Origin: Candidatus Gastranaerophilales bacterium
GTDB lineage: Bacteria; Cyanobacteriota; Vampirovibrionia; Gastranaerophilales; Gastranaerophilaceae
DNA length: 38,804 nt
Reading direction: 5' to 3'
NCBI GenBank assembly: GCA_947624325.1
Contig: CANQJT010000012.1
Location: forward strand, 1-38,804
The notes beneath the pieces were generated by a model that was not told where the DNA came from, did not search any database, and worked only from the letters and a program-made list of their open reading frames with translations. Position numbers and translations under genes: made by a program. Below are positions 37,003 through 38,804 of this stretch, one piece after another; position 1 is the first letter of the stretch, and each line of letters opens with the position of its first letter.

Positions 37003-37725
37003 ATGGAAGAAAAAAAAGACTTAATTATAATAATGCCATTATTTAATGAAGAAAAAACCATACATGAAACAATTAACAAATGGATTAATGTATTAAATAA
37101 ACTGGAAATTAATTATCAAATAAGAATATTCAATGACGGTTCAACTGATAATTCGGCAAATATAATTAACAATATTACAAACGAGAATAAAAATATAATT
37201 CTATATAATAATCAACACTTAGGGTTTGGTAAAACTCTTTATAATGCTTATAAACAAGCAAAAGACGGGGAATATATTTTTCATGCAGATTCTGATATTG
37301 AAATTGATCCTGAAAACTTTAAATTGTTTTGGGAAAATAAAGATAATGCAGATTTAATAATCGGTCGAAGAAATAACAGAGAACAAAATTTATTTAGGTT
37401 TATTGCAAGTAATTTAGCAAAAAAGTTTGTAGCTGTTATGTTTAGCAAATCCAAAAAAATAATCATTAATGATGTTAATATACCTTTCAGATTAATGAAA
37501 AGAAACACATTAGATAAAATATTAGACACTATTTCACCAAATTATTTATATGCAAATTTATTTATCAGTGCCTATTATTTAAAAAATAACTTAAAAATAA
37601 AAGAAATTTCTGTTGAATATAATAAACCAAAAAGAAAAAGCCATTTAGATAATATAATTAAATTGAGCATTCATGAGGTAATTTCCTTAATCCAGTTAAT
37701 TGAATATAAAATAAAGAATGTATGA
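37003..37725 (+). CDS. GT2 glycosyltransferase
   Basis: 240 residues, a single GT-A domain: IIIMPLFNEEKTIHETI, RIFNDGSTDNSA, GFGKTLYNAYKQA, metal-site HADSDIEIDPENF and DVNIPFRLMKRNTL. No C-terminal membrane pair, unlike the GT2 at 26.0-27.0 kb; the end is amphipathic. It resembles polyprenyl-phosphate mannose/glucose synthases. It starts 2 nt after the large membrane protein, a common arrangement in which the GT2 makes the lipid-linked donor used by the GT-C enzyme. Confidence 0.85.
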   Translation: MEEKKDLIIIMPLFNEEKTIHETINKWINVLNKLEINYQIRIFNDGSTDNSANIINNITNENKNIILYNNQHLGFGKTLYNAYKQAKDGEYIFHADSDIEIDPENFKLFWENKDNADLIIGRRNNREQNLFRFIASNLAKKFVAVMFSKSKKIIINDVNIPFRLMKRNTLDKILDTISPNYLYANLFISAYYLKNNLKIKEISVEYNKPKRKSHLDNIIKLSIHEVISLIQLIEYKIKNV

Positions 37726-37773
37726 ATTTGTCAAATAGTTTTGTTAAGCTTTTATCAATTATCATTTAATTTT

Positions 37774-38439
37774 TTATTTTAACATTTTTTGTGTACAGCT
37801 TGTACCATTATATGGATCGCTTGAAGTATTTGAGCAAGAACTATCACCTGTAAATACTGTTCCGGAAGCTCCCATAGGAAGCACTTGACCATCACTCATA
37901 AGTTGAAACATAAATAAATCTTCACCGAAACGATTTGGTCCTTTATCACCGTTAACATCAACAGAAAAAGTAATAAAGGAACCAGAATTTTCTATAAATA
38001 CTATTGTCCCATCGTTTAATACAAATTGTCCATCATCTAAAAAATAGGTAGCTTCCACTGCTTCTTGACCCGTTTTATTTTTATATTTTGTATAATCCAT
38101 ACAGCGAGTCGTACCTTTACAATCTTTTGCAACAATAAAGTATTTTATTATTTTATCTTTTAATTCTAAGGGAGCAATATCTTCGGGCAAAAGTCTAATA
38201 CCGTTATCAAATTGATACATATTTAAAGCATCTTTTAGTACTGAATAATTTTTCTTTAATGCAGATTTAACAGCCTGTTCCTTATAATTAGTAACTATAA
38301 CGGGAATAGCGAAAGCAGAAATAACTCCGATAATAACAATGGTAATTAGAACTTCAGCTAATGTAAATCCGTTTAAAGCTATTTGTCTTGGATTTTGCTT
38401 CATTTCGGCAGAGGATTTTGCTTCACTTCGTTGTCGCAA
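37774..38439 (-). CDS. Prepilin-like (type IV pilin/pseudopilin) protein, start displaced by C10 tract
   Basis: The frame from TTG 38439 gives 221 residues. The prepilin cleavage site is G24|F25 in ALNGFTLAEVLITIVIIG, with Glu at +5 and a hydrophobic N-helix. The mature part resembles type II secretion pseudopilins: YKEQAVKSALKKNYSVLKDA, a Gly/Asp-rich end with VDVNGDKGPNRFG, and Cys pairs (KDCKGTTRCMDY; SSCSN, TSCTQK). Neither TTG 38439 nor ATG 38403 has a ribosome-binding site. The ATG that has one (38531-38529, AGGAG at 38546-38542) lies upstream but out of frame because of a run of ten C; eight or eleven C would join it with no stop. So this may be an ON/OFF gene, or a base-call error in the homopolymer. 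Confidence 0.75.
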   Translation of the reverse strand: MRQRSEAKSSAEMKQNPRQIALNGFTLAEVLITIVIIGVISAFAIPVIVTNYKEQAVKSALKKNYSVLKDALNMYQFDNGIRLLPEDIAPLELKDKIIKYFIVAKDCKGTTRCMDYTKYKNKTGQEAVEATYFLDDGQFVLNDGTIVFIENSGSFITFSVDVNGDKGPNRFGEDLFMFQLMSDGQVLPMGASGTVFTGDSSCSNTSSDPYNGTSCTQKMLK

Positions 38440-38502
38440 AACTTCTGCCTCAGCACTTCGGCTTCGCTTCGCTTTACTACGACTCCAGCCTACGCAAAAT
38501 CC
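38390..38502. repeat. Palindromic GC-richer insert in the prepilin leader
   Basis: GGATTTTGCTTC occurs as direct copies at 38390-38401 and 38413-38424. GCAAAATCC (38494-38502) is the inverse of the first nine bases, so 38413-38502 is bounded by inverted ends. Inside lies low-complexity CTTCG/CTTCGC sequence unlike the AT-rich neighbours. TCGGCAGAG (38405-38413) also occurs in the tRNA-Thr repeat array at 13151, 13260, 13317 and 13361. It adds about 30 residues to the leader in the restored frame. Confidence 0.65.
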
Positions 38503-38506
38503 GTTC

Positions 38507-38516
38507 GGGGGGGGGG
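38507..38516. repeat. Homopolymer G10 (C10 on coding strand) after a start codon
   Basis: Ten G on the plus strand. On the minus strand it follows ATG AAT AAA GTA ATA directly. In this length the frame ends at TAG after 13 codons; C9 ends too; C8 and C11 read through into the prepilin-like gene. Confidence 0.85.
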
Positions 38517-38528
38517 TATTACTTTATT

Positions 38529-38546
38529 CATAATACTTTATCTCCT
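38529..38546 (-). promoter_or_regulatory. Ribosome-binding site and probable true start of the prepilin-like gene
   Basis: AGGAG (38546-38542) is 10 nt before ATG (38531-38529) on the minus strand. It is the only good initiation site near this gene and is separated from the pilin frame by the C10 tract. Confidence 0.65.
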
Positions 38547-38621
38547 CTTTTTTTAACTTATTATATCAAATTGTAATTATCAAAGCAATATTCTCTCTTT
38601 TTTTCAAAAAACTTTTAACCA

Positions 38622-38804
38622 AAAAGAGGGTTTCCACCCTCTTTTAAATGGCGGCAAATCATCGGCTCTCACAGCTCCGTTTCACTTCGCATACAGGCTC
38701 AGTCACCTCACTTCGTTGCGGTGCTTCGCTTTGTATCGCTTTCGCTCGTTCTCGCCTATGTCAGTCAATAAAAAAAGAGGTTTTTCAACCTCTTTTAAAT
38801 GGCG
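38622..38804. repeat. Two covarying terminator hairpins 151 bp apart with a shared tail
   Basis: Hairpin A, AAAAGAGGGT/ACCCTCTTTT (38622-38645), and hairpin B, AAAAGAGGTT/AACCTCTTTT (38773-38796), differ by a compensated base pair and are each followed by AAATGGCG. On the minus strand both descend into T runs (five and seven), so they can terminate a minus-strand gene beyond the right edge. The 126 bp between them are GC-richer with CTTCG-type low complexity, and I see no gene there. The second tail reaches the window end, so a longer tandem array may follow. Confidence 0.75.

Follow-up and report, generated by a model that had tools for sequence, protein, structure and literature searches.

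How is a prepilin-like gene expressed when the only well-placed start codon ahead of it leads, in the assembled sequence, to a stop a few codons later? This question is raised by a gene on the minus strand of contig CANQJT010000012.1 (contig 12) of a Candidatus Gastranaerophilales bacterium (assembly GCA_947624325.1). The contig was analyzed over a stretch of 38,804 nucleotides (nt), hereafter referred to as the window. A run of ten C's lies between the start codon and the prepilin reading frame. Judging from sequence evidence, this C10 tract is very probably a slipped-strand phase-variation switch, placed in the cleavable leader of a type IV prepilin-like surface protein.

On the minus strand, the locus reads GAGGAGATAAAGTATT, ATG AAT AAA GTA ATA, C10, and GAACGGATTTTGCGTAG. 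The tract occupies positions 38507..38516 (read as G10 on the plus strand) and begins 15 nt past the first base of the leader ATG (38529..38531; MNKVI...), which agrees with the initial annotation, where it was placed right after the start codon. This ATG is the sole one with a ribosome-binding site, likely the GAGGAG at 38542..38547 (minus strand, 10 nt spacing). Translation from it yielded 12 amino acids at C7, 251 at C8, 17 at C9, 13 at C10, 252 at C11, and 18 at C12, so that a change in tract length switches the reading frame of the gene. As had been claimed from the letters alone, the leader enters the intact prepilin frame (37774..38505, minus strand, 243 codons plus stop) solely at C8 and C11, and at the present length it ends after 13 codons, at a TAG at 38490..38492 (minus strand, coordinates derived from the ATG position). 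Long G/C runs had also been described as otherwise absent from the window, and no second C/G run longer than 5 was found in its 38,804 bases. A first-order Markov model predicted 0.003 C/G runs of at least 10 in the window.

The open reading frame (ORF) after the tract matched PF07963 (N_methyl) with 22.2 bits (cut-off 21.2) and TIGR02532 with 26.7 bits (cut-off 16.3). It carries the N-terminal cleavage/methylation motif with Glu at +5 (G|FTLAE), and the predicted prepilin-peptidase site, G|F in ALNG|FTLAEVLIT, was assigned to 38365..38370 (minus strand) by way of a 136-nt gap. In a profile search against solved structures, geopilin, GspG, and pilins matched best, with alignments confined to the N-terminal part. 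An AlphaFold2 model built from six sequences had a helix at residues 15–67 followed by a strand-rich head, a pilin-like layout, with a mean predicted local distance difference test score (pLDDT) of 78.7. A Pfam match to a coronavirus protein was below its cut-off and was disregarded. Named relatives of the protein come mostly from metagenome-assembled genomes (MAGs) of Candidatus Gastranaerophilales, and the same tract-leader design was found in named, independent MAGs (L072 and L075). In type IV prepilins, the prepilin peptidase removes the leader at the conserved motif, and the residues encoded by the tract (a run of Gly or Pro) are predicted to fall in the part removed. The genes pilA, pilB, pilC, pilT, and pilD have been reported in a termite relative (PMC5877343).

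Between the tract and the prepilin motif lies a GC-richer dispersed-repeat segment (38400..38501, minus strand; NGFCVGWSRSKAKRSRSAEAEVLRQRSEAKSSAE) that is stop-free in the ON frame. A related copy is found at contig position C2:252508-252617 (81%), and the insert is also present in the prepilin paralogue at C8:37048 and missing from the one at C8:49060. It resembles palindromic elements that insert in ORFs. We considered a mobile poly-C element, as the first paralogue shared the insert, and rejected it because other tracts lie in unrelated genes without the insert.

The proposed switch would work as follows. Replication slippage would add or remove C's in the leader tract. A ribosome starting from the single good ATG would, at C8 or C11, translate the tract, the inserted repeat, and then the prepilin; with C9, C10, or C12 it would stop within 18 codons and yield no pilin. 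A change of three bases would leave the mature pilin unaltered, and the tract would thus act as a pure switch, because the leader should be removed by prepilin peptidase. The switch would in this way be kept apart from its product.

To place the tract in its genomic context, C/G runs were counted across the genome that holds the window (1.98 Mb, 98.9% complete). It contains 62 C/G runs of at least 8, compared with ~4.5 expected from the window Markov model scaled to the genome, and no runs of exactly 7, compared with ~19 expected from the same model. Among 61 tracts with distinct flanks, 4 were of length 8, 33 of length 9, 19 of length 10, and 5 of length 11, an overall bimodal distribution with a peak at 9. 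C/G runs of 6–7 are almost absent from this genome, and their scarcity suggests that intermediate lengths are selected against or unstable. The genes with tracts largely encode surface-polysaccharide enzymes (pyruvyl transferase, GT92, GT2, and GT1 glycosyltransferases, NAD-dependent epimerases, FkbM methyltransferase, and acyltransferase 3). Others encode TPP enzymes, hexapeptide transferases, radical SAM/SPASM proteins, and three prepilins. Of 192 genomes in the order, 189 have a MutS domain, tract-rich ones included, so that loss of mismatch repair, in the form of MutS loss, does not explain the tract richness. The presence of this domain sets the group apart from Campylobacter, which is not known to carry MutS.

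Homopolymers are error-prone, and the length at this locus is known from the consensus only. The true tract could thus be C11 (or C8), in front of an ordinary in-frame prepilin, with C10 resulting from an assembly or sequencing error. We consider this highly unlikely. In the source assembly, intragenic A/T runs of at least 7 broke the frame in 5 of 138 cases, compared with 8 of 22 for C/G tracts (p=3e-5). A/T runs are therefore rarely frame-breaking, and the broken frames do not reflect a general homopolymer error. The tract itself is genuine and unusual, and many independent assemblies share its design.

The distribution of this design, which the slipped-strand switch would share with many relatives, was determined by searching 191 genomes of the window's family for a C/G tract 6–36 nt before a prepilin motif. 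The poly-G form was found in 40 of the 191 genomes (12 genera) and the poly-C form in 18 (7 genera), counts in which the two forms, and many paralogues, may have a common ancestry. A reversed control pattern gave no match among the same 191 genomes. Members of the direct class have an ON frame that continues without a stop into G/A/S-FTLAEV. Numbers of tracts per genome ranged from 0 to 179 in the family and from 0 to 15 in the sister families sampled. The same-genus genome G123 had 67 prepilin-like matches, and a tract stood in front of 33 of the 37 that were sampled. Three genomes of ~2 Mb each (G123, G258, and G269) had 64–69 prepilin-like matches, an unusually large prepilin family. The window gene would thus be one member of a phase-variable repertoire of prepilins and surface polysaccharides in the family, with most prepilins OFF in the consensus. 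Slipped-strand phase variation, as first proposed for this gene, is supported by the bimodal tract lengths, the variation among homologues, and the intact frames. The proposal of a single switch missed the scale, since dozens of genes in the family are involved.

Comparison with paralogues and relatives indicated that the leader tract is kept while its length and on/off state differ. Two paralogues on contig 3 (C3:203497 and C3:207124) are 100% identical over the 250 nt after the tract and 91.6% identical over the 250 nt before it, and one has an in-frame C9 and the other an out-of-frame C10. Three prepilin genes of the source genome, all starting with MNKV, have the common leader ATGAATAAAGTRAATA-C(n), with n = 10, 8, and 9; the window copy is one A short. 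In two of the three, a repeat insert separates the tract from the motif; the third has none. In genome G140, the tract is C11, C12, or C13 in copies whose leaders are closely similar, and leader tracts of G11, G12, and G13 are present in G049. Calling a gene ON or OFF on the assumption that translation starts at the first ATG with a plausible ribosome-binding site, we found C8 leaders mostly ON and C9 leaders OFF in G195, and G10 mostly ON with G9 and G11 mostly OFF in G203. Sets of lengths among paralogues with the same leader were 8/9, 9/10/11, and 11/12/13. In at least five genera, leader-tract prepilins occurred in both states and with several lengths within one genome, and ON copies were found in G195, G203, G049, G054, and G172. 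The ratio of nonsynonymous to synonymous substitutions (dN/dS) was 0.12–0.39 between prepilin paralogues of G140 and G123, the corresponding ratio of differences (pN/pS) was ~0.42 between the window gene and its two closest homologues, and the downstream ORFs are intact. The OFF frames are thus still maintained and are therefore probably expressed at some time.

Several results weigh against a simple switch at this locus. All three same-leader prepilins of the source genome are out of frame, that is, OFF. The length differences described above were obtained from consensus assemblies, with one genome per species, and are differences between homologues, not within one population. The repeat insert in its leader makes the window copy's fitness as a prepilin less certain than that of its relatives, and a Foldseek search with the predicted model gave no significant match. 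Prepilin leader frames from many genomes, called automatically in two samples, were 3 ON/53 OFF and 17 ON/72 OFF. With 20 of 145 in frame, this is below one third (p=1e-7), and simple neutral drift between states is not the whole story. In the source genome, 21 of the 36 tracts flanked on both sides by at least 100 nt of open frame were in frame and 15 were out; this differs from the prepilins (p=1e-7), and both p values are too small because paralogues are not independent, although several genera show the same ON/OFF contrast. The ON length (8 or 11) is not the modal one (9 or 10) in many genomes. We infer that ON is the rarer state of the prepilins, one slip away.

The predominance of OFF copies, together with tract-less, constitutive-looking prepilins in related genomes, would also be expected if the out-of-frame genes were silent donor cassettes for gene conversion, comparable to Neisseria pilS/pilE, with the tract serving only to keep them silent. 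This explanation is very improbable. Each copy retains a ribosome-binding site, an ATG, and a leader that is in frame at one tract length. ON copies are present in the five genomes listed above, and a non-exhaustive search revealed no expression locus whose flanks match.

Phase variation of the leader frame may not be the only mode of switching in this family. Several tracts of the source genome precede TATAAT in the conserved form TTGCxTC-G(9-11)-TAAAAGTGG-TATAAT. These promoter-spacer tracts of G9–G11 (loci L060, L065, L090, L091, and L093 on contigs 4, 6, and 8) lie ahead of genes whose products include secreted kelch-like proteins, and a length change in them would alter the promoter spacer, a probable case of transcriptional phase variation. 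Genome G123 contains a second prepilin class (L180-L212), which consists of a tract-bearing mini-ORF, an AU-rich hairpin with a T tail, and a prepilin that has its own start. The mini-ORF ends 0–26 nt past the tract for two of the three residues of n mod 3; for the remaining one it extends to 37–97 nt past the tract, close to the hairpin or inside it. Because the sequence is AT-rich, both the hairpin and the promoter readings are tentative.

The promoter-spacer tracts also bear on whether a fixed OFF tract could be read by leaky expression, through RNA-polymerase slippage or ribosomal frameshifting, yielding small amounts of prepilin in all cells and with no switching of the DNA. Such leakiness would fit a consensus that is mostly OFF and yet has downstream frames under purifying selection. 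It is extremely unlikely, however, since the required shift is +1 in some copies and -1 in others, paralogues differ in length and include ON copies, and frameshifting cannot act in promoter spacers. Programmed frameshifting was ruled out on the same ground, that the needed shift is not uniform among copies. A decaying pseudogene with a chance homopolymer would account for the repeat inserted in the leader and for the OFF state of the window copy, but has almost negligible probability given the 243 codons open after the tract, an ON frame that is open through the insert, and the chance expectation for such a run in the window given above.

Slipped-strand switching of the prepilin leader would, across the family, amount to a large system. 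We tentatively propose, with slightly less than even confidence, that gut Gastranaerophilaceae have a homopolymer-switched surface repertoire among the largest known. In this proposal, dozens of prepilin genes per genome would each be kept OFF by a cleaved-leader tract that is often a single slip from ON; surface-sugar enzymes would be mostly ON; and three modes (reading frame, promoter spacer, and leader-peptide attenuation) would coexist in one family. The slippage mechanism itself is already known from Campylobacter and Neisseria; what looks new is its scale here, its position within a cleaved pilin leader, and the fact that it occurs in this lineage.

In Campylobacter, poly-G/C tracts likewise peak at lengths of 9 (53%) and then 10 (26%), lie mostly within ORFs, and affect many surface-structure genes, with 5–81 phase-variable genes per strain (PMC6321876). 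The source genome has 62 tracts and a relative has up to 179, the coding strand carries poly-C as well as poly-G, and the targets include large prepilin families, in contrast to Campylobacter. Neisseria also switches type IV pilus expression through homopolymers and has many pilin variants per genome; there, pilC is switched, pilE is varied by recombination, and repeats are found in only 23 of 607 pilS alleles (PMC5953494), whereas the genomes described here have dozens of prepilin genes, each with its own leader tract. Pil1 of Streptococcus gallolyticus has a length-variable leader peptide before its pilus genes, and its populations are mostly weakly expressing (PMC3894217); the second prepilin class of G123 (leader ORF, hairpin with T tail, and pilin) has this attenuation-type layout. 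The window gene differs from Pil1 in being controlled directly by the reading frame, with no intervening terminator, and the pilus type and repeat unit differ as well. In open-access full texts (subscription journals and bioRxiv being outside this coverage), no paper joined Gastranaerophilales with phase variation, and a single paper combining Melainabacteria with phase variation was about flagellins.

Little is known of the surface biology of Gastranaerophilales, which are gut-dwelling relatives of cyanobacteria. If phase variation operates as proposed, pili and surface glycans would be diversified at random in each population of these presumed commensals, as in mucosal pathogens. It would also account for many broken-looking genes in Gastranaerophilales MAGs and would call for caution with pseudogene calls.

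Further features surround the locus. Upstream of the leader, an extended -10-like box (TGATATAAT, 38560..38568, minus strand) was tentatively recognized by eye and is also present in the paralogue at C8:37048; it was unlisted in a promoter consensus scan, and a good -35 is absent. A scan of 37700-38804 detected no terminator between tract and prepilin, the sole terminator-like site being at 38773-38796, upstream of the leader. The final 150 bases of the window (38655-38804) match the end of contig C2 exactly, and segments of them recur at many sites in the genome, indicating that the assembly breaks in a dispersed repeat.
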